Positions 4,703-30,483 of a DNA stretch of 30,483 nt are shown here, in pieces. The notes below the pieces were generated by a model. That model was not told the origin of the DNA, ran no database searches, and saw only the letters and a list, made by a program, of their open reading frames with translations. Position numbers and translations under genes: made by a program. Position 1 is the first letter of the stretch. Each line of letters starts with the position of its first letter. Source of the DNA: a virus; the IMG/VR virus record IMGVR_UViG_3300020347_000630, positions 1 to 30,483 of that record. One strand, given 5' to 3'.

Positions 4703-5034
4703 ACTACACGTCCGCCTACTATTCCACCTTTGTAAAGATATGTTTCTTTTTTAATTTTAGTGTTATCTCTTTCTTGGCAATGGTGAATACAAATTTTAGG
4801 TATTTCTGGCCAATTTTCAGTTCTTAAATCTTCTTCAAATTTCATCCACGGTTTTGAAAATAATATCTCCTCAATATCTTCAACTTCACTAATTTTACTG
4901 ACATCTGTTAATCTTTTCAATTGAGGTGCTTTTAGTGCCCATTGTTCATCACAATAACAACAAGGTAATAATTCACCTCTGTTATTAACAGCAGTTTGTT
5001 GTTTTCCAGATAAACATTTTGGTTTAAACTTCAT
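4699..5034 (-). CDS. SPASM-like Fe-S domain protein, partner of the upstream radical SAM protein
   Basis: The 111-residue protein looks like a detached SPASM or auxiliary iron-sulfur domain. It has C7 in PKCLSGKQ, then a GELLPCCYC block with C25, C26 and C28, and C82 and C86 in ICIHHC. This order (an early Cys, a Gly-rich turn followed by PCC, and a late CxxxC) matches the C-terminal end of SPASM radical SAM enzymes. The start codon overlaps the stop of the radical SAM gene as ATGA, and I see no good Shine-Dalgarno sequence. It is therefore likely to be translated by coupling, or joined to the upstream product by a -1 frameshift. It may be the split C-terminal half of what is one chain in relatives. 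Confidence 0.75.
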   Translation of the reverse strand: MKFKPKCLSGKQQTAVNNRGELLPCCYCDEQWALKAPQLKRLTDVSKISEVEDIEEILFSKPWMKFEEDLRTENWPEIPKICIHHCQERDNTKIKKETYLYKGGIVGGRVV

Positions 5035-6535: not shown

Positions 6536-6540
6536 CCTCC

Positions 6541-6554
6541 TATTTATATAAATA
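6541..6554. promoter_or_regulatory. Palindromic bidirectional T4-type late promoter
   Basis: The 14-base sequence tatttatataaata is a perfect palindrome that contains TATAAATA on both strands (plus 6547-6554, minus 6548-6541). It lies exactly between the divergent genes starting at 6535 and 6560. TATAAATA is the T4 late promoter -10 element read by gp55-type sigma factors. Both ATGs fall within about 6 bases of their box, so transcripts from it would have almost no leader. Confidence 0.8.
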
Positions 6555-6559
6555 TTAGG

Positions 6560-7351: not shown

Positions 7352-8052
7352 ATATAACAAGAGAAAAAGTATTTACTGATTTAGTTTGTGTTGAGAAGTT
7401 AGGAAAAGTATCTGCTGAAGAACAATTAAAGTTAGCAGAAACAATAGGTAAAGTAGAAAAACCTAATCTTAATAATCCTAGACATAAAGAATTGTTTGAT
7501 AAATGGGGTGGCGTACCAGGTGTTGTCAAGGTTACAGAGGGTGGATTATTTGGTCATAAAGAAAAATTAGATTGGCACGCTAATAAACCTAGTGAAGAAA
7601 ATAGATGTTCAATAGTTTGGATATATGCAGTAAAAGGAACAGAGGGTAGTGTGACAAGTTGGATTGATAATAAGAAAGCATATGAAGATTTAACAGACGA
7701 ATACAAAGAGTGGTGTAGTAGAATAAAATTTACTTGTGGATTTAAAAAGGGTGGTTATACAGATGACCCAACATTTCAAGTTCATCATAATAAAGAAAAC
7801 GTATATAATTTAGTTTACACAAATGAATATGGTCAAAAAGGATTATTCTTTCCATTCTTACAGATTATGGATGGAATACCAAAAACATTATTTGATTTTT
7901 TAAAAGAACATATTTTGCAAGATAAGTATAGATACGACCATCATTGGCAAGACGGCGATTTAGTTGTAAGTGAACAATGGTTAACAATACATAAAAGACA
8001 CGCCTTTGATAAAATGAATGAAAGATTAATGAATAGAATAGCTATAAGATGA
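7348..8052 (+). CDS. TauD/TfdA-like oxygenase with HxN in place of HxD
   Basis: The 234-residue protein resembles TauD/TfdA oxygenases. A central LDWHANKPS block is followed by SIVWIYAVKG and GSVTSW, matching the family stretch after the first iron ligands. Near the C-terminus, WLTIHKRHAF (H215, R217, H218) fits the distal His and 2OG-binding Arg region. The striking point is that the HxD pair reads H77-A-N79, so the iron-binding carboxylate appears to be Asn. Known cases where this residue is replaced, such as the Ala in SyrB2-type halogenases, have changed chemistry. The protein could therefore be a variant oxygenase, a non-oxygenase or an inactive partner. It overlaps both neighbours by 4 bases (ATGA), so it is co-translated with another oxygenase and a radical SAM enzyme. 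Confidence 0.75.
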   Translation: MNITREKVFTDLVCVEKLGKVSAEEQLKLAETIGKVEKPNLNNPRHKELFDKWGGVPGVVKVTEGGLFGHKEKLDWHANKPSEENRCSIVWIYAVKGTEGSVTSWIDNKKAYEDLTDEYKEWCSRIKFTCGFKKGGYTDDPTFQVHHNKENVYNLVYTNEYGQKGLFFPFLQIMDGIPKTLFDFLKEHILQDKYRYDHHWQDGDLVVSEQWLTIHKRHAFDKMNERLMNRIAIR

Positions 8053-9014
8053 AACCAGAAAATAATACATATCCTATATTAAGTGTACAAACAACATATC
8101 AATGTAATATGGCCTGTGCTAATTGTTATCTTGGTGATATGTTAAATAATCCAAAATTTCCAGATGTAGATGTAAAGAAGTTTGAAGATGTAATCAAAAG
8201 ATTGCCTAATAAAACACATATTAGATTTATTGGTGCAGAACCAACTTTAAATGGTAATTTATTTGAGTTGATAAAGATTACTAAAAAATTTAATCACAGA
8301 CCAAATATGTTGACCAATGGATTAAAATTGGCAGATGAAGACTATGTTAAAGGTCTTAAAGAATCTGGTATGACTTGGATTGGATTAAGTATGAATGGTG
8401 GCTTAGATGATGAAGTATATAAAAGATTTGATAACGGTAAATATGCAAAACTAAAGATGAGAGCTTTAGAAAATTGTATCAAGAATAATTTAGTACCTCA
8501 CGTTAATGTAATTATTGACCCCTCTAATGTACATATATTAGAACCATTAATATCGCATATAGTAAGTCTATGTGAAAAATACAATAGAAAGATAGGACCT
8601 CATTTTCCTATAATGATAAGAGTTAAATCAATAGGTAAAATGGGTAATTTTTTAGATTCATATACTTTTACAATATATGAAATGATAAACTTAATGAGAA
8701 ATATGTTAGGAGATATAGTACCTAACTTTACAATTGATGGCGTTAAAGAAACAAATACTTGTACCTTTGATTTTAAAACCTCTATGGGCAAGATGTATGG
8801 CAAGATAACTGATTGGTCAGTAGATGATGATGGTCTACCATTGACAAATAGTAAAAGAAGAGGTATAATAACAGACGATTATCAAATAAAACCATTTTTT
8901 GATTATTACGGAAAAATAGATGAAACACAACACCCTAGATTGGAACAACCGAAGCGTTTACCCATTGCTACAAAACGAAGTGGACTTGATGGTCCTAGAA
9001 AACGTACCTTGTAG
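8049..9014 (+). CDS. Radical SAM protein (MoaA-like core)
   Basis: The 321-residue protein has the cluster motif CNMACANC (C19, C23, C26) after the strand ILSVQTTYQ. The SAM-contacting block is IRFIGAEPTLNG, followed by NMLTNG and the WIGLSMNGG barrel strand. It therefore has a standard radical SAM core. The C-terminal part has only one further obvious Cys (in ETNTCTFDF) and ends in a basic tail, so no full SPASM domain is visible. Its last part overlaps the next gene for up to 95 bases in another frame. It lies among three oxygenase-like genes, which suggests a pathway of C-H activation steps on one substrate. The substrate is unknown. Confidence 0.88.
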   Translation: MKPENNTYPILSVQTTYQCNMACANCYLGDMLNNPKFPDVDVKKFEDVIKRLPNKTHIRFIGAEPTLNGNLFELIKITKKFNHRPNMLTNGLKLADEDYVKGLKESGMTWIGLSMNGGLDDEVYKRFDNGKYAKLKMRALENCIKNNLVPHVNVIIDPSNVHILEPLISHIVSLCEKYNRKIGPHFPIMIRVKSIGKMGNFLDSYTFTIYEMINLMRNMLGDIVPNFTIDGVKETNTCTFDFKTSMGKMYGKITDWSVDDDGLPLTNSKRRGIITDDYQIKPFFDYYGKIDETQHPRLEQPKRLPIATKRSGLDGPRKRTL

Positions 9015-9645
9015 TCAAGTAAAAATTTGGAATTTTTTAGAATCATTTTTTAAACCGGCTCCACAGGATCCGTTTGACCAGATGTTTGTTAATATTGTTA
9101 GTGATGAAAGAGCATTAGCAAAAGAGAATCTAAAAGGTAATACAGAGTTAGAATGGCATATTGATAAAGGTTATGCTAATGATACACCTGAATACGTGGC
9201 TTTGTATTCAGTTGATATAGATGAAGACGCTGGTAATACTTTGTTTGTATCAAGTAGAATACTTGAAGATATACCAGACTATTATCGTAAACATAAAAAT
9301 GATAAAGTTTCTTTTGATATGAATAGATTTATTCACGATAAACAATATGGTTATCACTTTAGAAGTGAATCTGAAAGAAGATTGTTTAGAAGAAAATATG
9401 GAAAAGTTGAACACGATTTAGTTCAAGGTGATAACAAAGGCGTTTACTTATATTATTGCGAAGCATATAATGACTTACCTGAAATGCAAATGATTAAAGA
9501 TAAGTTGTATGACCCCGATAAAATTCATAGACACAAATGGCAAAAAGGTCAACTTTTAATTTATAATAATAAAGCAACCAATCACAAAAGAGAAAATGGT
9601 GGTAACAAGAGGCATTTATGGAAGATTGCATTGTACGAGAGATAA
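8920..9645 (+). CDS. TauD-like 2OG/Fe(II) oxygenase
   Basis: The 241-residue frame has H80-I-D82 in LEWHIDKGY, followed by EYVALYSVDI and a GNTLFV block, which is the TauD/TfdA pattern for the first two iron ligands and the following strands. H222 in ATNHKREN is the likely distal His, and RHLWKIAL supplies the C-terminal Arg region. This one keeps the carboxylate that the gene at 7348 seems to have lost. The start is uncertain. The first ATG (8920) overlaps the radical SAM gene by 95 bases; an internal ATG at 8989 would reduce this to 26 bases and still keep the whole catalytic core. Neither has a strong Shine-Dalgarno sequence. The substrate is unknown. Confidence 0.82.
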   Translation: MKHNTLDWNNRSVYPLLQNEVDLMVLENVPCSQVKIWNFLESFFKPAPQDPFDQMFVNIVSDERALAKENLKGNTELEWHIDKGYANDTPEYVALYSVDIDEDAGNTLFVSSRILEDIPDYYRKHKNDKVSFDMNRFIHDKQYGYHFRSESERRLFRRKYGKVEHDLVQGDNKGVYLYYCEAYNDLPEMQMIKDKLYDPDKIHRHKWQKGQLLIYNNKATNHKRENGGNKRHLWKIALYER

Positions 9646-10157
9646 AAGAGTTTAATAAGTTATCAGGACTTTTTATATTAGCAAGTTCTTTACCACACGA
9701 AAACTCTAAAAATTATACAATTGAAAATATGCAAAAAAGATGGTCAAACTATCTTATGTTTAATGTATTAGAGTATAAGGGAATGCCAATTAGTTTTTCT
9801 GGTGTGTATAAGTATGGTAATAATTTGGTAAGAGTTGTAGATAGATTATTTACAATGCCTGAATATAGACAAAGATTTATGTCTAAAGATATAATAGAAA
9901 AGATTAGACCGGCGGCCGATTACTTTATACCATATCAAACTAAATGGGCAAAGGCAAGAGGTTTTGATTGTTTTTTTTCTATTCAAACATCAAAGAAAAG
10001 AAATGCAGTTAAAAGATTAACTAAATTAATTAGTGATGATTTAGATTATAGGTTGTTGCCAGGTTTATATCAAACTAGTTCAAATGAAATTACTGGTTGG
10101 CAAAACGTATCTGCTACAACTGATAATATAAATTTACCTAAACAATCTATACAGTAG
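9618..10157 (+). CDS. Putative GNAT-like acetyltransferase
   Basis: The 179-residue protein contains segments that fit a GNAT fold weakly: a strand ISFSGVYKYG, then VRVVDRLFTMPEYRQ where the central strand leads to the acetyl-CoA region, then WAKARGFDCFFSIQTS, which resembles the C-terminal strand and helix. The classic RxxGxG/A loop is not obvious, so the family is tentative. It overlaps the preceding oxygenase gene by 28 bases and closes the rightward enzyme operon. Its last 11 bases overlap the convergent minus-strand gene at 10147. No signal peptide or membrane segment is visible. Confidence 0.5.
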   Translation: MEDCIVREIKEFNKLSGLFILASSLPHENSKNYTIENMQKRWSNYLMFNVLEYKGMPISFSGVYKYGNNLVRVVDRLFTMPEYRQRFMSKDIIEKIRPAADYFIPYQTKWAKARGFDCFFSIQTSKKRNAVKRLTKLISDDLDYRLLPGLYQTSSNEITGWQNVSATTDNINLPKQSIQ

Positions 10158-18327: not shown

Positions 18328-21300
18328 ATGGCAATCACTAGAACAAAAATTGGAAATTTATGGTTTAATTATCGTGGCGATTACGATAATGCGGCTACTT
18401 ATAAAAAAGATGATATTGTAATCTGGAATAATACTGATTACTTAAACGTTAGAGAAGCTAATGTGAGTGGAAAAAGACCACAACAAAACACACAATATTA
18501 TTACAATATTCAAGCTACAACAGACCCTAACGACTCAACTACAAAATTTCAAATAGACGCTGACATTACTTCTACTATTGAGTGGGCACAAACTCTTTAT
18601 GTAAGAAGAGGTGATAAAATAGTATTCTATCAAAATAATAATAACAATGATGACCAACCTTTAGCATTAGCTACTACAGCAACAAGTCAAACATCAAATT
18701 ACTTAACAACAGGTGTGACTTATTATCATAATGAAGAAATGGTTAGTCAAGCAGATTTCGTAACCACAGCAAAATTCAATACAAAAACTTCAAGAAAAGT
18801 TGTTATAGATTTTAATAAAGATACACCAGATGAAATTTGGTATTTCTCAGCTGGTACAGGTGGTGCAAACTACGGTGGTAAAATTGTAGTTGCAGATTGG
18901 GATACTTGGAGACCTTTAAGAAATTCATTTAGTTGGAAAGGTCTACACGTTTTAACATCTGGCACAACTTACTATGAGAATGACGTTGTTCAAGTTAGAC
19001 ACGGTATCAGTAATGATATGGGTACTGACTACGAAGGACAATCAAAGAAAGAAACTCTATCTACTTACATATGTTTAAGACAACATACAACAGATGGCAC
19101 AGAAAGATTTTTACCATACAACAGAAATGTTGATACAGATGGTAATATGTACTGGCTAAAAATGGGTGCTGAATACGAATCAGATGATGAAAGATATGAA
19201 CAAAATGGTGTTATAGAATCAGTTGATAGTATATCAGCTGCTGACGCTTCAAGATTACACGGAGTATTCAGAAATGTATCTCCTAAATCTACATCAAACT
19301 CGGCTGTTAACGCACATCCAGGATGTTTTAAAATTACAGTTCAAGGTAACGGTAGTATTTTAGATACGGATACATTTTCGGCTGCTGACGCTTTAAGAAC
19401 AGCAGGAACATACACAAACGTTTCACAATCAGCAACAACTGGTGTTGGAACAGGTGCAGTTTTCAATGTGACAGTTGACTCTACAGGCGCAGTTTCAAAT
19501 CTTGAAATTATCAAAACTAGAAATAAATCAACTACACCAACAGGTGGTTCAGGATATGTTGATGACGAAACAGTAACAATTGCTGACGCTTCATTAGGTG
19601 GCGGTGGTGGTGCTGACTTTACATTTAATGCAAATGGAGTTGGTGTTGCAGGTTCAGCTACAATAGAAGTTGAAAGAGTTAGCTTTGATTCAAAAAGAGA
19701 CCAAAGATGGTTCAACGATACAGGTATGATTTCGGGTGGTGAAAATAATGTCATTAATGATACATTAACATTTGATGGAGATATTTTTGGCGGCGGCGCA
19801 GATTTAACTTGTGATGTTGCTACGCTTAGAAAACAAACTAGAGGTGCTTCATCTTTATTTTCAGGTAACTCTCACGAATGTATGTCACTAATTAATAACG
19901 GTCCAATAGGTGACGATAACAAATATTACAGATTATCAGGACAAAGAACATCAAGACATTGTGTTAACTGGCCAGTATTTTTAGGTGGTACAGGTAATAT
20001 ATGGACTTGGGGTTCTAACTCAAATGGTCAAAACGCATTTAACCACGACTTTATGACTGCTACTCAAATGTCATTTAACCACTATGATTGGTGGAGAAGT
20101 ACAGATAACGGTGGTACAGGTGTTCACACAACTCCAGACGGAGAAGTACCTAAAGTAATTCAAATTGAAGGTGGTTACCAATCAGGTATGGCGCTTATGA
20201 ATTCAGGCGAAGTTTATCATTGGGGTTATGGTGGTCACGGACAAAATGGTGACGCCTCAACTTCTAACAGAGACCACCCCGTAAGAGTTGGTGGTTCTAA
20301 TCAAAATGTTTTCTTAGCTGCTACAGATTCAGCACACGTATTTAGAAGTGTAAGAATTAAAAGAATTTTCTTATCTAACTGGCAAGGTTACAACTCTAAC
20401 ACACACTCTTGTTATGCAATTGATGAAGATGGAGAATTGTGGTCTTGGGGTTATAACGCATATGGTCAATTAGGAACGGCAAACACAACAAACTATAACA
20501 CACCTCAAAAAATTGCAAAAACAAATTTCAATAATGAAGAGATTGAGGCATTTTGGACAATTGGTGACGCTTATGCTTCAGCATATGCATATACTAAAGA
20601 GAAAAAATTATATGTTTGGGGAAGAAACGCAGATGGTCAATTAGGTATCGGTAATACTACTGACCAAAATACACCTCAATTAGTTTCAACGGTAACTTTT
20701 GATGGCACAGGTGTTGGTGAAATTAAAAAATTCCAAGGTCTAAACCATTCAGATGACAATACGGTTGCAATCTTGACTGAAAGAGGAACACTTTATACAA
20801 CAGGTAGAAATAACCAAGGTCATATGGGTAATGGTAACACAACAGTATTAAACACTTGGACAATTTGTTCAAATGGTTGTGGTAATGCTGCCAATGCAGA
20901 TTGTAATAATTTCTGGATGACAGGTAACGGTAATCACGCACAAATGTGGATAGAAGACTCGTTGGGTAATATTCAATGTGCTGGTTATAATAACCACGGT
21001 TCATTAGGAAACGGTAATGCTGATACACAAAATAGTTTTGTGACACCTAAATTTCAATTAGGTTCAGATACCGAAAGAGAATTCCATAATGTTAAATTAG
21101 TTGCAGGCTTCCCTCACGGAAATGACTTATCAACAAAAATTTTAACTTGGGACGGACACGTATTCCAGTGTGGTGATAATAGATATGGTCAATCTTCAAA
21201 TGGTTGGTCATCAACTAACTCAACAAATGATAGAAATGCTGAAAATTTAAAAGAACATTTCCAAGGATACCATTTCAACCAAGTAAGATTTCCTATGTCA

Positions 21301-21486
21301 TTAACAGGAAATGTTGAAGATATGAGAGGTTGTGGATATGGTGATAACTCTGACGCTGTTTATGCATTTTGGGAATATAAATCATTTGATAACAGATATT
21401 ATCTAAACGGATATGGCGGAAGTTATATGCAAGGAAATTCTGATGGTCAACTTTATTGTACAGCTCACGTACCAATTTTAGGATAA
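18328..21486 (+). CDS. RCC1-propeller tail adhesin 1 (1052 residues)
   Basis: Residues about 8-40 form one CBM5/12-like module (FNYRGDYDNAATYKKDDIVI). Residues about 88-190 look like a degenerate cupredoxin-type domain (YVRRGDKIVFYQ, PLALATT, IWYFSAG) lacking copper ligands. From about 555 to 965 there are seven RCC1-type repeats with the WxWGxNxxGQLG core, for example LWSWGYNAYGQLG and LYVWGRNADGQLG. RCC1 repeats form a seven-bladed beta-propeller, mainly a binding scaffold. A YDWWRS segment precedes the propeller and is shared with both paralogues. The C-terminus ends YCTAHVPILG. In phages such proteins would be exposed tail or fibre tips; this is inference from context. It is the first of three paralogues in a row, with its own late promoter. 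Confidence 0.86.
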   Translation: MAITRTKIGNLWFNYRGDYDNAATYKKDDIVIWNNTDYLNVREANVSGKRPQQNTQYYYNIQATTDPNDSTTKFQIDADITSTIEWAQTLYVRRGDKIVFYQNNNNNDDQPLALATTATSQTSNYLTTGVTYYHNEEMVSQADFVTTAKFNTKTSRKVVIDFNKDTPDEIWYFSAGTGGANYGGKIVVADWDTWRPLRNSFSWKGLHVLTSGTTYYENDVVQVRHGISNDMGTDYEGQSKKETLSTYICLRQHTTDGTERFLPYNRNVDTDGNMYWLKMGAEYESDDERYEQNGVIESVDSISAADASRLHGVFRNVSPKSTSNSAVNAHPGCFKITVQGNGSILDTDTFSAADALRTAGTYTNVSQSATTGVGTGAVFNVTVDSTGAVSNLEIIKTRNKSTTPTGGSGYVDDETVTIADASLGGGGGADFTFNANGVGVAGSATIEVERVSFDSKRDQRWFNDTGMISGGENNVINDTLTFDGDIFGGGADLTCDVATLRKQTRGASSLFSGNSHECMSLINNGPIGDDNKYYRLSGQRTSRHCVNWPVFLGGTGNIWTWGSNSNGQNAFNHDFMTATQMSFNHYDWWRSTDNGGTGVHTTPDGEVPKVIQIEGGYQSGMALMNSGEVYHWGYGGHGQNGDASTSNRDHPVRVGGSNQNVFLAATDSAHVFRSVRIKRIFLSNWQGYNSNTHSCYAIDEDGELWSWGYNAYGQLGTANTTNYNTPQKIAKTNFNNEEIEAFWTIGDAYASAYAYTKEKKLYVWGRNADGQLGIGNTTDQNTPQLVSTVTFDGTGVGEIKKFQGLNHSDDNTVAILTERGTLYTTGRNNQGHMGNGNTTVLNTWTICSNGCGNAANADCNNFWMTGNGNHAQMWIEDSLGNIQCAGYNNHGSLGNGNADTQNSFVTPKFQLGSDTEREFHNVKLVAGFPHGNDLSTKILTWDGHVFQCGDNRYGQSSNGWSSTNSTNDRNAENLKEHFQGYHFNQVRFPMSLTGNVEDMRGCGYGDNSDAVYAFWEYKSFDNRYYLNGYGGSYMQGNSDGQLYCTAHVPILG
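19975..21230 (+). repeat. RCC1-like propeller repeats, adhesin 1
   Basis: Seven repeats of roughly 50-70 codons each carry an aromatic-x-x-G-x-N core. The best are WTWGSNSNGQ, YHWGYGGHGQ, WSWGYNAYGQLG and YVWGRNADGQLG; the last two blades (QCAGYNNHGSLG, FQCGDNRYGQ) are more divergent. Confidence 0.8.
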
Positions 21487-21489
21487 ATA
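21482..21489 (+). promoter_or_regulatory. Late promoter variant overlapping a stop codon
   Basis: GATAAATA includes the TAA stop of the preceding gene and lies 19 bases before the ATG at 21509, with an AGAGAG ribosome-binding site between. The first base differs from the T4 consensus. Confidence 0.6.
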
Positions 21490-21508
21490 ATAAGAGAGAT
21501 TAAAAACT

Positions 21509-24500
21509 ATGGCAAAAATAAATTTAGGACGAGTAAAATTTAGTTACCAAGGAGATTGGAACAACGATACTACATATCGTAAAGATGATGTGTGTTGGTT
21601 TGACAATACACTCTGGATTTGTACTAATCCTTACTTATCAAATGGTTATGATAACTATGCTCCAGGCGATAAAGGCACAGGTTATTTTTGGACAAGAACA
21701 TACTCAAACGACCCTAATTTTAGAAGAGGTTATCACGTATTAGATGATGACTTCCAAAGAACAAATGAAACTGGTAATCCTATTATCAACACTTCAAGAT
21801 ATGGCTCAGATGAAAACACACAAGAGTCAACAAGAAATGGCCAAAAATTTGGACAAGCAAATTGGTTTTCAAACAATTCATCAAATGGTGGTTACTTACT
21901 AGATTATCAATCACATTTATTAAATGATGAAGAAGATTATGTTATGGGAGACAAAGGCGACTTCTTTGGTTATGGTGAATTAAATACAAACAAAATTTCA
22001 ATCTTTCAAAATTACGTACCAGTAGAAAACAATTTTAGAGTTGATGTTCAAACATCTCCTTCAAACAAATTTAGATTTGACAATAGATTAGGTAGTGTAG
22101 ATTTAGGAAGAGAAAACTTTGGTGGTCAAGGTGGTGGTTTCAGACACTTTACACATTTCAAAGAAGGATACAAATACAGATTTGACCAAAGAGACGAATC
22201 AAATAAAACTTTTCCATTAGGATTTTCAAAAACTGCTGATGGTATTCACAATGCTTCACCAGGAACATCATTAGCCGCTGATTTAGACGGACCTTATTTT
22301 GTTATTGGCGAAACATCAACAGGCGATTCAGGTAACTTCTATCCTTTATATCTATCAGCTGCAGGTGCTAATGCTGAAGACACAAGAATGAATGGTGCTG
22401 GTACTTCTACTTCAATAACTTTTTCAGAAATTATTAGAGGACCTAATAACGAAACAGTTAATGATAGTACAACATTTTATTTACCAGACACAATTGATGG
22501 TACTGCTGTTGATGAAAGAATTTTAGAAGTTGAAGTTGTTTCAGGCAACCCAACTAATCACCCATATTACAACACAGGTTCAACAAACAAATATTCAATT
22601 AACGGTTCAACAGCAACAGCTGATGTTGCGTTAAACTTAACAGAGGGTAAAACTTATAGATTTGAACAATCAGATAGTTCAAACACAGGTCATCCTTTAA
22701 GATTTTCTACAACCGAAGATGGTACACACGGTTCAGGTTCAGAATACACAACAGGCGTTAAAGTTGTAGGTACACCAGGTAAAAAAGGTGCATACACCGA
22801 AATTACTGTAAGAAAAGGTGCACCAAAACTTTACTATTACTGTACTGCTCATTCTAAAATGGGTTATTCTTCAGAAACAATTACTCCATCATCAAGAGCG
22901 AGAGCATTTGCTCCTTCAAACACTCCAATGTGGAGAGGCGCTAACAAAAACGGTTTAGTAAGATACTTCTTAAACAATAAACAGGTTACAGAAACACAAT
23001 ACAAAGAAACTTTTGCTGACACAATACAAAATGATGGCTCTTTATACACAGGTGATATGCCAGCATACACAACTGAAAATGGTTTAACAAGAGGTGGTCA
23101 ACAATACTCTTGGAAGAAAAATCAAGACAGACACGTTGAAGTTTATATACCAATTGGTTACTTTAAAATGGAAAGTCAAACAATTTATCCTTTCTGTTTA
23201 GCTGCAAGTAAAACTGATATGAATTCTGATTTAGGTTGGAATGTTGAAGAAACTTGGAGAGGTTACAAACATTGGGATAGATTACAAACAGGTATTAAAT
23301 TTAGAGGTGAGTATGATGTAAACACTCACTACAAATATAATGATATAGTTATATACAGCAAGAAAAAAAGAAGAGCAGATGGTACTGGTTCAGAATTTCA
23401 ACCACTATCACCTACAGGTATGTACAGATGTTTAAGAGATTCTTTAGGTAGACCTCCTCATTACGGTCCACAAGAACCAACAAGGTCTCCTTTGATGACA
23501 AAATCTACTACAACAAGTGGTAAACTTATTGCAGAACAATATCAAGAATATCCAGCACATATACAATCTTATTGGAATGACTGGGAAGATTTTGGTGGAC
23601 AAGTTAACCAAGTTAGAGAAGCTAATGCTTGGTATCCTAACAGAGGTCCTATTCATTGGCCTTACAAACACAGTACACAAACGGTGTCTCATATTGATAG
23701 TCAATACAGACACATTGATAAAAATGGTGTTGCTTGGGGTATTAACTATCCTAGAACAGGTTTCCAAACATATGGTTCTTTTTATGCTTCATTCTATCAC
23801 GAAATCAACTTCATTTGGAGAGATTGGTGGAGAAGTGAAGACTTAAACTACACAGGTTACAACGAGAACAGAGGTAGAAATAGAAGTACAGTAAGAAAAC
23901 CATTACACACACCTAGATGTATTCAAATTGCTGAAGGTAGAAATAGAACCTATTGGTTAATGGATAACGGAGAATTATATGTAAATGGTGAAAACTCAAA
24001 CGGTGAAATGGGTATTGGTAACGAACAAGGCGATAGAAACGGTACTTTTAGAGTTCACGGTTTAGAAGATGTTAAAATTGTTAAAGTAGCTAATGATCCT
24101 TGGAGTGATGGTACAGGTCACACTTTAGCGCTTGACGATAAAGGTACAGTATGGTCTTGGGGTTACAATGACCAAGGTCAATTAGGTGATGGTAGAACAC
24201 AAAATAAAGCTGCACCTTACAGAATACCTAACAAATATTTTGATAACGAAAAAATTATTGATATTTGTACAACAAATAGAAGCTCATATGCAAGAACAGC
24301 TAGTGACCAAATATACGGTTGGGGTAATAACGGTATCGGCCAATTAGGTGATACTACAACAACTGACAAATACAGACCTACAAAAATGCAAGGTTGGGAT
24401 CCTGTTGCAAACAACGGTATCGCAGTATGGCAAATTCAAGGTAACGGTGATGATGGTTGGGTAACCTTACTAGACGGTAACGGATATATTTGGAATTGTG

Positions 24501-25132
24501 GTGAAAATAACTATGGTAACTTTGGTGATGGTACAACAACAAATAATACACAGTTAACAAAAACTGAAGTTGCACCAGGCGGAGACATTGTTGACTTATG
24601 GACAATGTACTGGAATGGTTACAAAACTTCATTTGTTAGAACAAAAGATGGTACTACATATCACTTTGGACATAATGGTTCTTACCGTAATGGTGGTACA
24701 GGTAATACTAGTAACGATACATCTCCAGTTGTAGTGCAAAAAGTCACAAATCTAAAAGAAGTACACGTTTCAGGTGATTATTCAGACCAAGGTAAATCTT
24801 TCTGGATTACAGATAGTGGTGAAGCATTTTGTTATGGTTATGATTCAAGAAATTCTATGTTGCACCCACAGGCGGGTACAAACTGGACTGGTGAAGATGG
24901 TAATAATCATCCTTTCCATTGGGTGACACCTGCCGGTGCTAGAGTTAAAACAATGCATATTACTTCAGATGACCAAGGTTCATCTGAATATGCTGGTGGT
25001 TACAGATACACAGATGAACACGGAAAAATGTTTTATTGGGGAAGAAATTATTGGTTGTCTGGCCATAACTGGTGGACACACGGTTGGACTTCATCAAATG
25101 GACAGGCTTATAATCAAGGCCACGGTAGATAA
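21509..25132 (+). CDS. RCC1-propeller tail adhesin 2 with a cupredoxin-like domain (1207 residues)
   Basis: Residues about 9-40 are a CBM5/12-like module. Residues about 219-290 are a degenerate cupredoxin-like copy (YKYRFDQRDES, TFPLGF). Residues about 375-456 are a second copy with what looks like a full type-1 copper set: H395 in GHPLRF, then C445, H448 and M451 in YYYCTAHSKMG. The Cys-x2-His-x2-Met loop matches that of amicyanin. A second CBM-like segment lies near residues 605-640 (FRGEYDVNTHYKYNDIVIY). Residues about 815-1190 hold seven RCC1-type repeats such as WSWGYNDQGQLG and YGWGNNGIGQLG. It is probably an exposed tail protein. The copper-site call rests on motif spacing only; the domain could also be a structural relic. 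Confidence 0.86.
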   Translation: MAKINLGRVKFSYQGDWNNDTTYRKDDVCWFDNTLWICTNPYLSNGYDNYAPGDKGTGYFWTRTYSNDPNFRRGYHVLDDDFQRTNETGNPIINTSRYGSDENTQESTRNGQKFGQANWFSNNSSNGGYLLDYQSHLLNDEEDYVMGDKGDFFGYGELNTNKISIFQNYVPVENNFRVDVQTSPSNKFRFDNRLGSVDLGRENFGGQGGGFRHFTHFKEGYKYRFDQRDESNKTFPLGFSKTADGIHNASPGTSLAADLDGPYFVIGETSTGDSGNFYPLYLSAAGANAEDTRMNGAGTSTSITFSEIIRGPNNETVNDSTTFYLPDTIDGTAVDERILEVEVVSGNPTNHPYYNTGSTNKYSINGSTATADVALNLTEGKTYRFEQSDSSNTGHPLRFSTTEDGTHGSGSEYTTGVKVVGTPGKKGAYTEITVRKGAPKLYYYCTAHSKMGYSSETITPSSRARAFAPSNTPMWRGANKNGLVRYFLNNKQVTETQYKETFADTIQNDGSLYTGDMPAYTTENGLTRGGQQYSWKKNQDRHVEVYIPIGYFKMESQTIYPFCLAASKTDMNSDLGWNVEETWRGYKHWDRLQTGIKFRGEYDVNTHYKYNDIVIYSKKKRRADGTGSEFQPLSPTGMYRCLRDSLGRPPHYGPQEPTRSPLMTKSTTTSGKLIAEQYQEYPAHIQSYWNDWEDFGGQVNQVREANAWYPNRGPIHWPYKHSTQTVSHIDSQYRHIDKNGVAWGINYPRTGFQTYGSFYASFYHEINFIWRDWWRSEDLNYTGYNENRGRNRSTVRKPLHTPRCIQIAEGRNRTYWLMDNGELYVNGENSNGEMGIGNEQGDRNGTFRVHGLEDVKIVKVANDPWSDGTGHTLALDDKGTVWSWGYNDQGQLGDGRTQNKAAPYRIPNKYFDNEKIIDICTTNRSSYARTASDQIYGWGNNGIGQLGDTTTTDKYRPTKMQGWDPVANNGIAVWQIQGNGDDGWVTLLDGNGYIWNCGENNYGNFGDGTTTNNTQLTKTEVAPGGDIVDLWTMYWNGYKTSFVRTKDGTTYHFGHNGSYRNGGTGNTSNDTSPVVVQKVTNLKEVHVSGDYSDQGKSFWITDSGEAFCYGYDSRNSMLHPQAGTNWTGEDGNNHPFHWVTPAGARVKTMHITSDDQGSSEYAGGYRYTDEHGKMFYWGRNYWLSGHNWWTHGWTSSNGQAYNQGHGR
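23960..25080 (+). repeat. RCC1-like propeller repeats, adhesin 2
   Basis: Seven repeats, the clearest being YVNGENSNGEMG, WSWGYNDQGQLG, YGWGNNGIGQLG and WNCGENNYGNFG. The last three (YHFGHNGS, FCYGYDSR, FYWGRNYW) keep only the core strand. Confidence 0.78.
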
Positions 25133-25134
25133 CA

Positions 25135-25151
25135 TATAAATAGTATAAATA
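25135..25151 (+). promoter_or_regulatory. Tandem T4-type late promoters
   Basis: Two TATAAATA boxes (25135-25142 and 25144-25151) are separated by one base, 42 bases upstream of the next ATG. This is the only same-strand doubled box seen in the window. Confidence 0.75.
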
Positions 25152-25175
25152 GTAATACAATAATATATTACTATT
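25148..25175 (+). other. Leader hairpin with 10-base-pair stem
   Basis: AATAGTAATA (25148-25157) pairs perfectly with TATTACTATT (25166-25175) around an 8-base loop. It sits in the 5' leader just before an AAAGGAG ribosome-binding site and overlaps the end of the second promoter box. The pairs are nearly all A-T, so the stem would be weak. Confidence 0.55.
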
Positions 25176-25193
25176 CTAAAGGAGAAAAAGAAA

Positions 25194-25613
25194 ATGGCAA
25201 AAAAAGTATTCAGACTTAAAGAGATTGCTCTTGAAAGCGATTACGTACATCCTGCCGTATCAACTGGAACAGGTCCTGTAGCGTTAATGACAATTGATGG
25301 TTACAACTATTCCTCTTATGATGACGGTGAGGTAACAATTACAACTACTGGTGCTAATGATACCACATATGGTGTAAAAGTTATGGATGCTACAGACGCA
25401 GACGATTTAGCAATTATGAAAAAGTTAAGAAAAACACCTAGTTTAATGTTAGAAAGAGCAACACTTCAAGAAGTTTTTGATGACACTTATTCAAAGGTAG
25501 AAGTTTATGACGCTTTAATTAATGATGTCACTGCTGTAAAAACAGCACACGACACTTTAAAAAGCGACATTAATGCTGTGTTTACTAATCACGGTTTACC
25601 AGCTTTAATATAA
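25194..25613 (+). CDS. Unknown late protein between RCC1 adhesins, probably well expressed
   Basis: The 139-residue protein starts AKKVFRLKEIALESDY. It has a beta-rich first half (VALMTIDGYNY, EVTITTTGAND, TYGVKVMDA) and a helical second half containing Leu/Ile/Val heptad-like stretches (about residues 95-135). I recognise no domain. It has doubled late promoters, a leader hairpin and the strongest ribosome-binding site (AAAGGAG) in this block, which suggests high expression. Only 24 bases separate it from the next adhesin gene, which has no promoter box of its own. It may be a fibre chaperone, connector or minor virion protein; none is shown by the sequence. Confidence 0.75.
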   Translation: MAKKVFRLKEIALESDYVHPAVSTGTGPVALMTIDGYNYSSYDDGEVTITTTGANDTTYGVKVMDATDADDLAIMKKLRKTPSLMLERATLQEVFDDTYSKVEVYDALINDVTAVKTAHDTLKSDINAVFTNHGLPALI

Positions 25614-25637
25614 TAAGAAAATATAAAAGGTAAAAAA

Positions 25638-27881
25638 ATGGCTTTTGAATTACAACAATTTAAACTTACTTGGCAAGGTCCTTGGAGAGATAGAACAGCT
25701 TACACTAAAAATGATATTGTAGGTTGGAAAGGTAAATCTTATAGATGTATAAGAGATTGCCCTATTTCATATACACTTTCACAAGATAGTATTGTTAACA
25801 CAGCTAACTATTCTTTCGACCCGGTAAGAATAGTACAAAAGTCTTTTAGACCAGACAACGCAAAATACTGGCAATTATTCTTACGTTCAACAGATGATGT
25901 TGGAGAGTGGGAATTTTACAGACAATATGAGCCAGGAGAAATGTGTTCAGTTGGTAGAAAAATTTACCAATGTATCAAAAGAACAAGACGTTATAATACT
26001 TGGGTTGTTGAACACGATGGAACAACAAGTGAATATTGGGTGAAAATTTACGAATCACCTTTTGCATATCCAGACAGAAATAAAATTGTATCTTTCACTA
26101 ATAGAGCTCCTTTAGGGTGGAAATACAATATGGGTAGAAATTCAAGAGAACAACAACATAACTATACACTTGGTGCAATTCATTCAGATGGTGATTTTTA
26201 TGGCCACGGTGGTAATAACAACAATGGTCAAATGGGTATGGGTGATTCACAATCAGGTAATGCAAGACGTGGTTCTCCTAAAAACGTAGGTTTTACTTTT
26301 GTTGATTGGATGACTTCAGTTGATAATAAAGACATTGCAAAAGGTACCGAGTTTACAGGAAATATGGTTTCGCCAGATGGTGAAACTCCTAAATGTATTC
26401 AACACGTATCTTCAAATAATACTTCTTGGTGGTTGATGAATAATGGTGAAGTTTACTCTGCTGGTTATAACTCACACTATCAATTAGGTTATAACGAGGG
26501 TGGTAACACAAATACTAGCGACAGAAATTACACGAACAGAGTATCAGCAAGTGATACCGTTGACTGGTTAGGTGAAACAATACGTCCATTTAACGAAACT
26601 AAAATGGTTAAAATTGGTTCTTCAGGTCAAGGTCAAAACAACTCTGCTTGTATGCAGTTTGCATTAGGCGAAGACGGTTCAGTATGGATGTGGGGTCATA
26701 ACAACCAAGCTCAGTTTGGTGGTGGTAACCCTAGTATCAATAATTCAACTGATACAAACGCAGGTTCGCCTTACTCATTTTCTTTCTATTCAGTTAATGT
26801 AAAAAGACCTATCAAAATTCCTCAAGCATTCTTTAATGGTAAAAGAATTGTTGATATGTGGGCAAACGGTAATGAAGAAATGTTTTTCCACGCTCTTGAC
26901 GAAGACGGATACTTATGGTTTTGGGGACAAAACATACACGGTTGTGGTGGAACAGGTGAAGGCTCACACACTTCTCAAGGAGTAAAATATTATTATATTC
27001 CAAGAAGAGTAGAAGTAAATTGGAATTTATACGGTGGTATGAAAATGATACAACATTGGTCATACTCTTCACAATCACACGCAGGTACTTGGGTACTTGA
27101 TGGTGAAGGATATTTGTGGTACACAGGTTACTTAACAAACGGCCAAGTTCCAGGTATATACGGTATAGGTGATAATGCAACTAGATATATCTCACAATTT
27201 CAAAGAACAGATTTTCACTTAAACGGTGATGTTGATGAGTTTTGGTGTGGTGGTGATGAACATAAATGGTTTTACTTTAGACAAAAATCAACTGGTATGA
27301 TGTGGGTAAATGATGGTAACTACGGAACATATGGTAGTAGAGGTTCACGTTCACAAAACGGATACTGGTACAATTCAGGTGGTATTCACGGTATGTTCTC
27401 TCATTTAAGAGGACCAAAATACATTAGACAAGTTGGTGGTATGAATGAAAACAGAGGTGATGGTAGTTATATCTACGACCATCCTCTAATATTAGATGAA
27501 GAAGGCTCAATGTGGTACGGTGGTTACGATAGTGGAGGTTATTATCCTTCAAATACAGACTCAAATCCTAGTAGTCAGTCAGACGGTTATCATCATATGA
27601 CAGAGCAAGCATTTGAAGCAAACTCTGAAAATAGACATAGAAAAAGACGTGGTATACAACCAAATAATATCAAGTTGGTAGACGTTCATTGTTATGGTTA
27701 TCCAACTGCTCAAAACTTTGCTACTAGAGATAGTCACGGTAAATTATTGAGAACAGGTTACCAAGGTAATAACCAGACTTATATGTATGACATTATGCCT
27801 TATAGATACTATTCTCAAACGATTTCATCTTGGGGTTCAAATAACTATCAATCTCACTGGTCTTCATCGCCTGGTGATTAA
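25638..27881 (+). CDS. RCC1-propeller tail adhesin 3 (747 residues)
   Basis: The N-terminus has a CBM5/12-like module (LTWQGPWRDRTAYTKNDIVG and SYRCIRDC), with a second similar segment near residues 93-120 (YEPGEMCSVGRKIYQCI). Residues about 184-715 carry RCC1-like repeats, including YSAGYNSHYQLG, WMWGHNNQAQFG and LWFWGQNIHGCGG. The later blades (LWYTGYLTNG, MWVNDGNYG, MWYGGYDSGG, LLRTGYQGNN) are degenerate, and I count about eight. The block before the second repeat (VDWMTSVD, then PKCIQ and WWLMNNGEVY) aligns by eye with the same stretch in adhesins 1 and 2. It is probably expressed from the tandem promoters upstream of the 139-residue gene. Confidence 0.84.
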   Translation: MAFELQQFKLTWQGPWRDRTAYTKNDIVGWKGKSYRCIRDCPISYTLSQDSIVNTANYSFDPVRIVQKSFRPDNAKYWQLFLRSTDDVGEWEFYRQYEPGEMCSVGRKIYQCIKRTRRYNTWVVEHDGTTSEYWVKIYESPFAYPDRNKIVSFTNRAPLGWKYNMGRNSREQQHNYTLGAIHSDGDFYGHGGNNNNGQMGMGDSQSGNARRGSPKNVGFTFVDWMTSVDNKDIAKGTEFTGNMVSPDGETPKCIQHVSSNNTSWWLMNNGEVYSAGYNSHYQLGYNEGGNTNTSDRNYTNRVSASDTVDWLGETIRPFNETKMVKIGSSGQGQNNSACMQFALGEDGSVWMWGHNNQAQFGGGNPSINNSTDTNAGSPYSFSFYSVNVKRPIKIPQAFFNGKRIVDMWANGNEEMFFHALDEDGYLWFWGQNIHGCGGTGEGSHTSQGVKYYYIPRRVEVNWNLYGGMKMIQHWSYSSQSHAGTWVLDGEGYLWYTGYLTNGQVPGIYGIGDNATRYISQFQRTDFHLNGDVDEFWCGGDEHKWFYFRQKSTGMMWVNDGNYGTYGSRGSRSQNGYWYNSGGIHGMFSHLRGPKYIRQVGGMNENRGDGSYIYDHPLILDEEGSMWYGGYDSGGYYPSNTDSNPSSQSDGYHHMTEQAFEANSENRHRKRRGIQPNNIKLVDVHCYGYPTAQNFATRDSHGKLLRTGYQGNNQTYMYDIMPYRYYSQTISSWGSNNYQSHWSSSPGD
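26180..27790 (+). repeat. RCC1-like propeller repeats, adhesin 3
   Basis: About eight aromatic-x-x-G repeat cores, more divergent than in adhesins 1 and 2, with longer insertions between blades. Confidence 0.68.
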
Positions 27882-27887
27882 TAAATA
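27880..27887 (+). promoter_or_regulatory. Late promoter variant before the bilin operon
   Basis: AATAAATA overlaps the stop codon of adhesin 3 and lies 36 bases before the ATG at 27924. It is one base off the consensus. It is partly contained in a stem-loop. Confidence 0.5.
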
Positions 27888-27923: not shown

Positions 27924-28667
27924 ATGTACAAAACGAAACAAAACTATTTAAGTTTTAAGAATCACGAAATCTTTACAGATAAGTTCAAACAATATTCGAA
28001 AGAACAGCAAGCTACATATTGGTATAACATTTGGTATATACTCAATATAATGGAAGGCTGTCTTTCTGTTATTGATTTTGAACATCATAATGCCGGCAAA
28101 AAACTAGTAAATAAATGGTTAGAATTATGGCCATTTAAAGCACAACCTAATTTTGCTCAAAGAGTACCAACTTTAGTTGATGGTGTTGATTATCTAGGTA
28201 ACAAATATAAATTCAATCACACAAGACCAATAGATACAAAAACCAAAATAGATTACTTTGATTATCAAGTTGTCTATGGCACAGTTGTTGATTTATTTAA
28301 AGATGAATTAAACATTTCAAAAGAAGATGTTGACGCATTTTTAAATCCTTTAAAAGAATATAAATTAAGAAAATATGCAGTAGTGAGACACGATACTATC
28401 AAAGCGGTTGTTGGTATGTCTGACTTTTTTATGAATACTAAAAATGTTTGGGAAGAAACAAAAAATTTTGGTGATTGGCGTATTATGGATTCTAATAGAG
28501 CAATTGAGGAATGGAAACAAGGTGTACAAGACCATTCTGTTAGAGAAGATTATCCATTAGATAAATCAAAAATAATTGACCATAGAAATGGTGTTGATGA
28601 TAATAGATGGAAAAGAGAATCGTTTTTAGATGTGGAAAAAGAAGATGGTGTCAGAGAAGAAATATAG
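27924..28667 (+). CDS. Unknown protein leading the bilin operon
   Basis: I do not recognise this 247-residue protein. It is rich in Lys, Asp, Trp and Tyr, has a single Cys (about residue 46, in MEGCLSVIDF), and shows no signal peptide or transmembrane segment. A helical N-terminal half contains YWYNIWYILNIMEG; the C-terminal 60 residues are charged (WRIMDSNRAIEEWKQ and on). A GAGGAAA ribosome-binding site precedes the ATG. Its end overlaps the heme oxygenase gene by up to 38 bases in another frame, so it is co-transcribed and probably coupled with it. A role in bilin handling or lyase-type attachment is possible by association, but an unrelated late gene is equally possible. Confidence 0.75.
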   Translation: MYKTKQNYLSFKNHEIFTDKFKQYSKEQQATYWYNIWYILNIMEGCLSVIDFEHHNAGKKLVNKWLELWPFKAQPNFAQRVPTLVDGVDYLGNKYKFNHTRPIDTKTKIDYFDYQVVYGTVVDLFKDELNISKEDVDAFLNPLKEYKLRKYAVVRHDTIKAVVGMSDFFMNTKNVWEETKNFGDWRIMDSNRAIEEWKQGVQDHSVREDYPLDKSKIIDHRNGVDDNRWKRESFLDVEKEDGVREEI

Positions 28668-29244
28668 AATTACCGAATTAGTTTGGGAATATCATAAGAA
28701 CGCTGAAAGACAACAGTTTGTACAACTTTTAATGTCTGGTGAAATAGACGAAAAACTTTATGCAACTTATCTTTACAATCAATTAGCTTGCTATTCTAAA
28801 CTAGAAGAGTATTGTTTAGAAAGTTCTTTGTTTATAGATACTAGAAACTTGCCAAGAGCACCTCATATTTACTATGATTACAAACACTTATGGCAAGATG
28901 TTGATAATAAACCAGAATTAACAGAAAGTACAAAAGCATATGTCGAACATTTAGAAACTATTAGAGGTGAGAATGAAAAACTTTATGCACACGTTTATGT
29001 TAGACATTTAGGTGATTTATCAGGTGGTCAAATGATTAAAAGAAAAACACCAGGACCTAATAGATATTATGTATTCAAACATAACGAAGCAAAAGAATAT
29101 AAAAGAATTGTTAAAGAAAGAGTTGAAAGTTATTTAAATCTGTATGAGATAAACGTATTGCCTGAAGCAATATTTTGTTTTGAAAGTGCAACAAAATTAT
29201 TTAAGGAAATGTATGATTTGGGACCGACTAATAAAGTGGAGTAA
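28630..29244 (+). CDS. ho1: Heme oxygenase (biliverdin-forming)
   Basis: The 204-residue protein matches the HO-1 family. The proximal heme ligand is H22 in VWEYHKNAERQQF. The distal-helix signature is GDLSGGQ at residues 128-134, preceded by YVRHL. The length is close to the usual 210-240. It opens heme to biliverdin IX-alpha, CO and iron using ferredoxin electrons and oxygen. The start is uncertain: ATG at 28630 or ATG at 28645, both upstream of the ligand and both overlapping the preceding gene. It overlaps the bilin reductase gene by 32 bases, so the two are coupled. Marine phages often pair ho1 with a bilin reductase. The call is firm on both motifs. Confidence 0.95.
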   Translation: MWKKKMVSEKKYRITELVWEYHKNAERQQFVQLLMSGEIDEKLYATYLYNQLACYSKLEEYCLESSLFIDTRNLPRAPHIYYDYKHLWQDVDNKPELTESTKAYVEHLETIRGENEKLYAHVYVRHLGDLSGGQMIKRKTPGPNRYYVFKHNEAKEYKRIVKERVESYLNLYEINVLPEAIFCFESATKLFKEMYDLGPTNKVE

Positions 29245-29917
29245 TGAGACTGTTGAAGTCTTAAATAAAAATCTGGTTGAATATGATGAACCAGGTATGG
29301 ACAGATTCAATAATAAAGAATTAGGCTGGGTAAATAGAACCTGGAATAATAGATATATTAGACGAGCTCATTTAGATGTTGTTGATGTTAGAGAAACAAA
29401 AGGTTTATGGATGGCACATCTATGTTTGTTTCCTATGTTAACAAACGGTGGACCAATTTATGGTTTTGATATAATTGCAGGTGAGAAAAAAGTCACAGGT
29501 GCATTTCACGATTTTAGTCCTTTATTACAAAAAGACCACCCATTAACAAAATGGTTTATAGAAGAAAATAAATGGTACAAACCTAGTAAAGAGAGGGAGT
29601 TGCCGGATTGGGCAAAGGCTATCTTTTCGGGAGGTATGATAGCCGCCGGCAATGTAAGAGAAGAAGAAGAGTTAAATAAAATATGTACAATGGCTGTATC
29701 TAATTTAAACAACTATATAGATAAAATTAAGAACCACGAAAATGAAGCCAAGATGTTAGATGTTATAAAAGCACAGAATTATTACTGTGAACATCAACAA
29801 AAAAATCCACATACACCTAGGGTTATGCAATCTCTTGGTTTACCAGACGAAGATATTAAATTATTCTGTTCCGACAACCTATTTCCTTATGTGTCAGAAA
29901 ACCAACCCTATCTGTAA
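29213..29917 (+). CDS. pcyX: Ferredoxin-dependent bilin reductase, PcyA/PcyX-like
   Basis: I place the start at ATG 29213 (234 residues), preceded by AAGGAA; the frame is open from 29180, deeper inside ho1. The family shows in the MAHLCLFP segment (H69), the GGPIYGFDIIAG segment (D86) and the C-terminal YYCEHQQKNPHTPRV and LFPYV. H69 and D86 are 17 residues apart, the same as His88 and Asp105 in PcyA, which favours the PcyA/PcyX branch over PebS. An acidic residue, D55 in AHLDVV, lies near where PcyA has Glu76; from memory PcyX has Asp there. PcyX reduces biliverdin to phycoerythrobilin. Assignment as PcyX and not PcyA needs a tree. Reductant would come from a ferredoxin not seen in this window. 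Confidence 0.85.
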   Translation: MIWDRLIKWSNETVEVLNKNLVEYDEPGMDRFNNKELGWVNRTWNNRYIRRAHLDVVDVRETKGLWMAHLCLFPMLTNGGPIYGFDIIAGEKKVTGAFHDFSPLLQKDHPLTKWFIEENKWYKPSKERELPDWAKAIFSGGMIAAGNVREEEELNKICTMAVSNLNNYIDKIKNHENEAKMLDVIKAQNYYCEHQQKNPHTPRVMQSLGLPDEDIKLFCSDNLFPYVSENQPYL

Positions 29918-29924
29918 TAACTAT

Positions 29925-29932
29925 TATAAATA
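29925..29932 (+). promoter_or_regulatory. T4-type late promoter for the neck gene
   Basis: TATAAATA lies 21 bases before the ATG at 29954, with an AAGGGTG ribosome-binding site between them. It restarts the core virion genes after the bilin operon. Confidence 0.78.
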
Positions 29933-29953: not shown

Positions 29954-30483
29954 ATGGCAGAACCAGCAACTAGAGAGAGTTTAAAACAATATGCTTTAAG
30001 GGCGTTAGGAAAGCCTGTTATTGAGATTAATGTTGATGATGACCAACTTGAAGATAGAATTGATGAAGCAGTACAATACTTTGCTCAATACCACTATGAT
30101 GGTGTTAAAAGAACATATTTAAAGTATCAATACACACAAGCAGATAAAGACAGAATGACAGCTGACGCTTCTGAAACAGCAACAGTCGATTCTAGTACAA
30201 CTACTTGGAAAGAAGGACAGAATTGGTTAGGTATACCATCATCTATTCTTTCAGTTATTAATATATTTCCCTTTTCAAATAAAGGTAGTATGAATCTATT
30301 TGATGTTAGGTATCAATTAAGATTAAATGACCTTTATGATTTTTCTTCAACTTCAGTTGTAAACTATGATGTTGTATTAAGACATTTAGATTTTTTAGAC
30401 CACATATTGGTTGGCGAAAAACCTATGAGATTTAATCAACACGAAAACAAACTTTATATAGATATGGACTGGAAAAATGATTT
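29954..30483 (+). CDS. 13: T4 gp13-like neck protein, 3' end cut by window edge
   Basis: The frame is open for 176 codons to the right edge. The N-terminus, with LKQYALRALGKPVIEINV followed by DDQLEDRIDEAVQYF and QYHYDG, aligns by eye with T4 gp13 (an ILRRLGAP segment, then PDQIYDCI and EYHFDG). gp13 forms the neck that seals the DNA-filled head and joins it to the tail. T4 gp13 is 309 residues, so a little over half is present. In T4, gene 13 follows the baseplate, short-fibre and whisker genes, which matches the adhesin block here. It is the strongest single indicator that the phage is T4-like. Confidence 0.88.
   Translation, partial: MAEPATRESLKQYALRALGKPVIEINVDDDQLEDRIDEAVQYFAQYHYDGVKRTYLKYQYTQADKDRMTADASETATVDSSTTTWKEGQNWLGIPSSILSVINIFPFSNKGSMNLFDVRYQLRLNDLYDFSSTSVVNYDVVLRHLDFLDHILVGEKPMRFNQHENKLYIDMDWKND

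Follow-up and report, generated by a model that had tools for sequence, protein, structure and literature searches.

A heme oxygenase-pcyX cassette, predicted to make phycoerythrobilin, in a probable T4-like pelagimyophage

What does a non-photosynthetic cell do with phycoerythrobilin? The question is raised by a gene cassette at one end of the virus record IMGVR_UViG_3300020347_000630 (30,483 bases; hereafter the window), in which a heme oxygenase gene is followed by a gene for a bilin reductase of the PcyX family. The record is the window itself, and statements on the rest of the genome rest on its relatives. We conclude that the window very probably carries the phage heme oxygenase-pcyX cassette of a T4-like pelagimyophage, whose two enzymes would make phycoerythrobilin. 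SAR11 bacteria, which rank among the most abundant cells on Earth, are not known to have phycobilisomes.

That the heme oxygenase-pcyX pair occurs in pelagiphage-type phages is essentially published (Nat Commun 2024). PMC11480375 describes viral hemO-pcyA/X-valaS cassettes, which share the hemO-pcyX pair with the window, and its gp13 tree points to pelagimyophages. The window differs from them in that the 28 open reading frames (ORFs) scanned with Pfam gave no AlaS-type match; a TIGR01821 search of 16 pelagimyophage-type records gave none either. What we add is a set of linkage counts, a measure of constraint on pcyX, a third gene (orf27924) and a sister clade on large contigs. The open-licence literature, taken without supplements, yielded no orf27924-like third gene, no measure of pcyX constraint and no "jumbo phage" bilin reductase.

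An earlier sequence-only reading had placed a bilin operon at 27924-29917. Its two enzyme genes stand, both intact and on the plus strand: the heme oxygenase gene at 28630-29244 (204 amino acids, with an alternative ATG at 28645; PF01126, E 3.6e-18) and pcyX, a predicted PcyX-family phycoerythrobilin synthase, at 29213-29917 (234 amino acids; PF05996, E 3.3e-17). The first 744 nt belong to a third overlapping ORF that the reading did not mention. We start pcyX at the ATG at 29213 rather than at the mechanically assigned TTG at 29180, and from there it overlaps the heme oxygenase gene by 32 nt, in line with the overlap noted earlier.

The reductase matches crystallized PcyX_EBK42635 (PDB 5owg) over its full length (E 1.9e-154), with 214 of 234 residues identical; the next PDB chains to match are PcyA, the best at E 1.5e-15. 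To place it, we used a tree of 43 ferredoxin-dependent bilin reductases (FDBRs), of which 15 rows make up the PcyX set: 12 IMG/VR loci, the Pelagibacter phage Mosig, the window and EBK42635. Most of the 72 PcyX loci were left out. So were, among the large-contig type, L143-L145 and L149 (partial), L148 (broken reading frame), L086 (partial) and L085 (whose protein is that of L140), and in addition L099, L100, L112 and L095; six cyanophage PcyA rows stand in for 27 records and three PebS rows for 29. The 15 PcyX rows form one side of a branch (87/92) found in 90% of 200 bootstrap trees, and the smallest starred set that holds the window reductase consists of six rows, all PcyX (100/99). Sister to the PcyX set are the rows from large phage contigs (the two sets joined at 100/99), followed outward by three Roseomonas/Acetobacteraceae FDBRs (100/99); such a nesting of PcyX with alphaproteobacterial enzymes fits the "AX" lineage of PMC10151467. 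PebA, PebB and PebS lie across a 100/100 branch. The tree program flagged long branches in the cyanophage PcyA and PebS rows and an unusual residue composition in the Roseomonas rows; the place of the window, which rests on the small starred PcyX sets, is therefore firmer than the deep joins. The PebA, PebB and PcyA labels of the cyanobacterial rows are our own, one of them checked against solved structures (L107, best match PebA 2x9o). The sequence-only reading had named such a tree as the check that could overturn it; the reductase is not firmly placed with PebS or true PcyA and falls within PcyX.

The residues agree with the tree. Asp55, His69 and Asp86 (numbered from the ATG at 29213) are common to all 15 PcyX rows, the window included, and to 6/6 large-contig rows. 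The position of Asp55 is held by Glu in 13/13 PcyA-side rows, among them all six cyanophage PcyA, and D55 thus separates PcyX from PcyA; PMC11480375 names it as PcyX-specific. At the position of His69, Asn stands in 9/9 PebS, PebA and PebB rows (PebS 3/3), which upholds the earlier suggestion that H69 and D86 favor the PcyA/PcyX branch over PebS. The window reductase has Asp where PcyA has Glu, and it has neither the tree position of PebS nor its Asn. Cyanophage PcyA and PebS are likewise FDBRs of T4-like marine phages, but they occupy separate places in the tree and differ at these two residues. The window protein belongs with PcyX by its clade with EBK42635, by D55, H69 and D86 and by its co-occurrence with a heme oxygenase. 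It shares with EBK42635 these residues and the same small starred set; it differs by 20 substitutions and in that the window copy has a known gene neighborhood, orf27924 included.

Could the enzyme nevertheless be a true PcyA, with phycocyanobilin as its product? There is a precedent in the freshwater phage CB_2, whose enzyme was expected to be a PcyX and proved to be a real PcyA (PMC11480375), and the window clade does adjoin alphaproteobacterial FDBRs in the tree. However, the Asp55 present in the window reductase is absent from CB_2 according to the same source, and the identity to PcyX 5owg at 214 of 234 positions also speaks against a PcyA; we regard this alternative as highly improbable.

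The protein encoded at 28630-29244 is matched by PDB heme oxygenases (best E 3.1e-11). Its aligned His22, which we take to be the heme ligand, is invariant in 14/14 aligned relatives, and the motif GDLSGGQ is found in 13 of these 14, with GDLAGGQ in the other. The family match, the histidine and GDLSGGQ together make it an HO-1-type enzyme. In the predicted pathway, the heme oxygenase would open heme to biliverdin IXalpha with release of carbon monoxide (CO) and iron, and PcyX would use four electrons from ferredoxin to convert biliverdin via 15,16-dihydrobiliverdin to phycoerythrobilin. Phycoerythrobilin is the product of PcyX, a close relative of the window enzyme, according to PMC11480375 and PMC13197396. 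We infer from the sequences that both window enzymes are active.

The two genes travel together. A scan of IMG/VR gave 71 pcyX loci, to which Mosig was added, and the scoring covers these 72 loci, the window apart, including many near-copies; scans of this kind reach close relatives only, and most of the records are fragments. gp13, the neck gene, directly follows pcyX in all 68 loci that leave 150 nt or more for it. A heme oxygenase gene is present in 65/65 loci with more than 250 nt upstream, often overlapping pcyX and in one case (L052) lying about 0.6 kb away. Starting from the heme oxygenase instead, we found pcyX in 41/41 loci and gp13 in 39. Since 36 of these contigs had already been picked by pcyX, the independent part comes to five loci (L190-L194), and pcyX is present in 5/5. 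Where their ORFs were listed (L190, L191, L192 and L194), one gene intervenes between pcyX and gp13. It differs in L190 from that in the other three (L191 1262-2323, L192 4254-5276, L194 4254-5276), whose products of about 340-353 amino acids have a signal-peptide-like start and appear porin-like by eye.

Which cell does the phage infect? Mosig (EXVC030M) was isolated on SAR11 HTCC1062 (PMC7892664). Its cassette (Mosig_00054, Mosig_00053) has the heme oxygenase, the FDBR (83% identity) and the neck protein in the same order as the window; it differs 5' of the heme oxygenase, where Mosig has annotated 2-oxoglutarate (2OG)-Fe(II) oxygenases and the window has orf27924 and RCC1-like proteins. HTVC008M also has annotated 2OG-Fe(II) oxygenase genes at the site before gp13, and the site therefore looks like an accessory spot. 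The window gp13 (29954-30481, plus strand, running off the record end) encodes a gp13-type neck protein or head-tail adaptor (PHROG 211, E 6.5e-22) that is 81% identical to that of Mosig, 64% to that of HTVC008M and 62% to that of Melnitz, an OM43 phage with a host in the Methylophilales.

The FDBRs of cyanophages invite the thought that the cassette holds photosynthetic auxiliary genes for a cyanobacterial host, like cyanophage pcyA and pebS, and a 2026 paper (PMC13197396) places PcyX among viral lineages that infect cyanobacteria. Yet the window gp13 is at most 51% identical to cyanophage proteins (best 20 of 584 matching records), well short of its identity to Mosig, the window FDBR falls outside cyanophage PcyA and PebS in the tree, and searches for Photo_RC (PF00124) and Phycobilisome (PF00502) each matched 0/21 related records, mostly fragments. 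A cyanobacterial host is thus very hard to sustain. By sequence, the host is likely to be SAR11 or close kin, with an OM43-like host as a possible alternative. The sequence-only reading had placed PcyX on uncultured marine phages with possibly non-cyanobacterial hosts: the former is correct, and PMC11480375 has already reported the link to pelagiphages, while the latter gains support from the isolation of Mosig and from the gp13 identities.

If the host has no use for a light-harvesting bilin, what keeps pcyX? We estimated the ratio of nonsynonymous to synonymous substitution rates (dN/dS) by the Nei-Gojobori method, each locus against the window. Unmatched medians are 0.07 for pcyX (66/67 loci usable), 0.094 for gp13 (66/67), 0.156 for the heme oxygenase (63/63), 0.258 for the RCC1-like protein (25/25) and 0.441 for orf27924 (33/34). 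In the 57 loci with pcyX, gp13 and the heme oxygenase, the medians are 0.069, 0.093 and 0.156, respectively; pcyX has the lower value than the heme oxygenase in 57/57 and than gp13 in 51/57. It is also the lowest by median (0.064) in the 23 loci with all five genes. pcyX is constrained at least as tightly as a virion protein. Because iron is freed by the heme oxygenase alone, this strong constraint favors a role for the reduced bilin, which might serve the infected non-photosynthetic cell as an antioxidant, a ligand or a cofactor. That the reduced bilin is the product maintained by selection, with iron release as a by-product, has in our view about an even chance of being right on these sequence comparisons. 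With a pink-pigment pathway under selection as strong as that on a virion protein, the role of a bilin in a heterotroph becomes a testable question, for which the Mosig isolate and a defined gene pair offer a handle.

The opposite emphasis is that the heme oxygenase is the point, supplying iron or CO, and that PcyX would do nothing beyond clearing biliverdin. Iron is scarce in the open ocean, which counts for such a role. An iron-supply function is discussed in PMC11480375. Three observations go the other way: the lower dN/dS of pcyX in every matched comparison with the heme oxygenase (57/57); the retention of pcyX in 5/5 independent heme-oxygenase loci, though iron is already free after the first step; and the presence of 5-aminolevulinate synthase in two of five large-contig relatives searched, which seem to feed heme in. 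We consider iron or CO supply as the purpose rather unlikely, and among the product uses offered by the sequence-only reading, heme breakdown for iron or CO alone fits the constraint on pcyX poorly.

Several points weigh against our preferred interpretation. Every dN/dS comparison has the window as one of its two sequences, which makes the comparisons non-independent, and pcyX and the heme oxygenase gene have 32 nt in common. Constraint on an enzyme does not tell which product counts; it is an argument, not a proof. No bilin-binding partner was found, and any use proposed for the bilin is guesswork. When expressed in a cyanobacterium, PcyX is functional but weaker than PebS, with an activity estimated at less than one-tenth that of PebS or PebA-PebB (PMC13197396). 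Absent families prove little among mostly fragmentary records. Electron supply adds two further difficulties: the Fer2 ferredoxin found with the cassette has by eye the CX5CX2C pattern of adrenodoxin-like rather than plant-type ferredoxins and is unproven as an electron donor, and no FDBR match was obtained on a 74-kb contig that carries a relative of this ferredoxin.

This Fer2 ferredoxin occurs in two of ten pcyX records, Mosig and the 109-kb contig of L068, and was not detected in the other eight (28-63 kb). A tblastn search of 50,697 phage records matched it in Mosig only; 65 viral loci carry a ferredoxin related to it. An FDBR was found in 0/9 records tested (seven ferredoxin-bearing contigs of 18-74 kb, HTVC008M and Melnitz), most of them too short to decide, and HTVC008M and Melnitz have no Fer2 match either. 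Among ten records on the large-contig side, Fer2 matches only a metagenome-assembled genome (MAG), on another contig, and the L250 contig has a ferredoxin by tblastn that Fer2 does not detect. These results point both ways on a ferredoxin dedicated to the cassette. A ferrochelatase feeding the cassette was also considered, Mosig_00059 being so annotated, and was set aside: PF00762 has no match in Mosig or 14 viral contigs, and its only match in the 16 records searched is in a MAG. Annotated ferrochelatases lie near the gp13 site at L073 16357-17127 and L260 3074-3715 (Mosig, HTVC008M).

The third gene, orf27924 (27924-28667, plus strand, 247 amino acids), is first in the apparent operon and runs into the heme oxygenase gene, which starts at 28630. 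A homologue is present in 35 of the 60 pcyX loci with more than 900 nt upstream. Sequence searches said little about the protein: tblastn against 50,697 phage records came back empty at E 1, the window protein matched neither a Pfam family nor a PDB sequence, and a Pfam scan of its relatives gave only weak, chance-level matches to three families, one member each. A scan with its own profile recovered 36 loci, 35 of them on pcyX contigs; the contig of the other (L131) ends just after the ORF.

We built two AlphaFold2 models, one with the window protein first and one with L007 first, from largely the same alignment; their mean predicted local distance difference test (pLDDT) scores are 72.7 and 70.5. 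Foldseek returned nothing significant for the first model (AhpD on top at E 0.21, with AetD, TenA and heme oxygenases at E 0.5-3.5), nor did its viral library (best E 0.38). VIA-align served as a second look at the Foldseek candidates; the tool itself cautions that helical models may commonly give Z scores of up to about 13. Heme-oxygenase (HO)/TenA-superfamily chains, among which we count UndA, HamA, CADD, PqqC and AetD, make up every one of the 50 rows listed for the first model (Z 11.2-9.7; best root-mean-square deviation (rmsd) 3.5 over 163 aligned) and most rows for the second (Z 11.5 downward; best rmsd 3.5 over 161), where aldehyde-deformylating-oxygenase and ferritin-like chains appear from Z 8.0. 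A profile comparison with the heme oxygenase alignment is weak (probability 2.5%, E 0.019, 46 columns). Its register resembles the structural match as far as the range ends tell, and its score of 22.66 exceeds those of 40/40 column shuffles (highest 18.97), the reversed alignment (15.0) and the FDBR alignment (14.4). On these models, a shared heme-oxygenase/TenA-like fold appears rather probable. When the weak 46-column alignment is extended, the place of His22 is taken by an invariant Asn (N7), and we therefore do not call orf27924 a heme oxygenase.

Does orf27924 have anything to do with bilins? The gene evolves fast (dN/dS 0.427-0.441) and is absent from 25 of the 60 loci with room for it, Mosig included; with no significant Foldseek match, AhpD ranked first and the Asn at the His22 place in the weak profile alignment, it could be an accessory or virion protein that came first in the operon by chance. 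On the other side are the 35 of 36 homologues on pcyX contigs (L131 ending after the ORF), the overlap with the heme oxygenase gene, the preference of both models for HO/TenA folds and the profile score above all 40 shuffles. We would put an unrelated protein at a coin's toss. The fuller proposal, that orf27924 is a diverged HO-fold carrier of heme, biliverdin or phycoerythrobilin that lacks the catalytic histidine, within a three-gene operon of a SAR11 phage that uses the bilin non-photosynthetically late in infection, is speculative and we hold it to be doubtful. As things stand, orf27924 offers a concrete candidate partner for the bilin pathway.

When in infection would the cassette be expressed? 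The sequence-only reading had placed a late-type promoter before the operon, and this holds in part. The element AATAAATA (27880-27887, plus strand), a possible off-consensus T4-type late promoter, begins 44 nt before the first operon start and has one mismatch to TATAAATA; the exact TATAAATA sits after the operon and before gp13 (29925-29932, plus strand), where this late-promoter-like site recurs in 24/24 distinct gp13 upstream sequences. Among 15 distinct operon upstream sequences, AATAAATA is found in 14 and AAAAAATA in the remaining one, with exact TATAAATA in none. Because the element overlaps the stop codon of the upstream gene, its conservation is partly coding, and a site with at most one mismatch to TATAAATA occurs in 8.9% of random 60-mers. 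Exact TATAAATA lies within 60 nt 5' of 7/30 gene starts, compared with 0.9% of 20,000 random window 60-mers; over the whole window it occurs 11 times against 5.7 expected, a count reached by 5/100 shuffles. Late-transcription factors are among the annotated genes of Mosig. The phage probably uses T4-type late promoters, and late-phase expression of the cassette is plausible, although transcripts that start at the TATAAATA sites 25135 and 25144 and read through might cover the operon instead. A hairpin terminator before the operon found no support (z -0.83; 39/200 shuffles equally or more stable).

A scan of bacterial genomes gave 12 loci, three of which (L084-L086) encode proteins with 51% identity to the window PcyX. 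Their neighbors are phage-like by eye, and an IMG/VR contig encodes a protein 100% identical to that of L085. We rejected a bacterial PcyX and regard these as probable phage contigs binned with MAGs. Together with L140-L149 they form the PcyX-like sister clade, at about 51% identity to the window and on contigs of up to 357,559 bases, with Asp55 kept in all six aligned rows. In L084-L086, the PcyX-like gene is adjoined by heme oxygenase, ClpS-like and Hsp20-like genes (by eye). The 5-aminolevulinate synthase that accompanies the clade in two of five records searched perhaps reflects the "broken cassette" arrangement of PMC11480375. The FDBR on a Nonlabens contig (L099) matches PcyA of cyanophage P-TIM40 in its first and last residues, perhaps through contamination.

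On its 5' side the cassette is preceded by an RCC1-like/CBM5_12 protein (25638-27881, plus strand; PF25390 E 2.6e-18, below the curated cut-off, with RCC1 repeats and CBM_5_12 at E 6.8e-06 just over theirs), found at the same position in many relatives. RCC1-like repeats occur in three large adjoining window proteins (18328-27881). From their place alone we read these RCC1-like/CBM proteins as tail-fiber-type, the adhesins of the sequence-only reading, which had likewise set the cassette between adhesins and the gp13 neck gene.

In L036 (6088-7641) and L047 (6073-7623), of another clade, an ORF with a flavin halogenase-like start (GGGSAGWM motif) lies a few genes 5' of the heme oxygenase, and HTVC008M has an annotated tryptophan halogenase near the same site. 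Elsewhere in the window, positions 1170-10157 hold a cluster of radical-SAM, DegT aminotransferase and TauD dioxygenase genes, and a similarly annotated set is found in Mosig at 60-71 kb.

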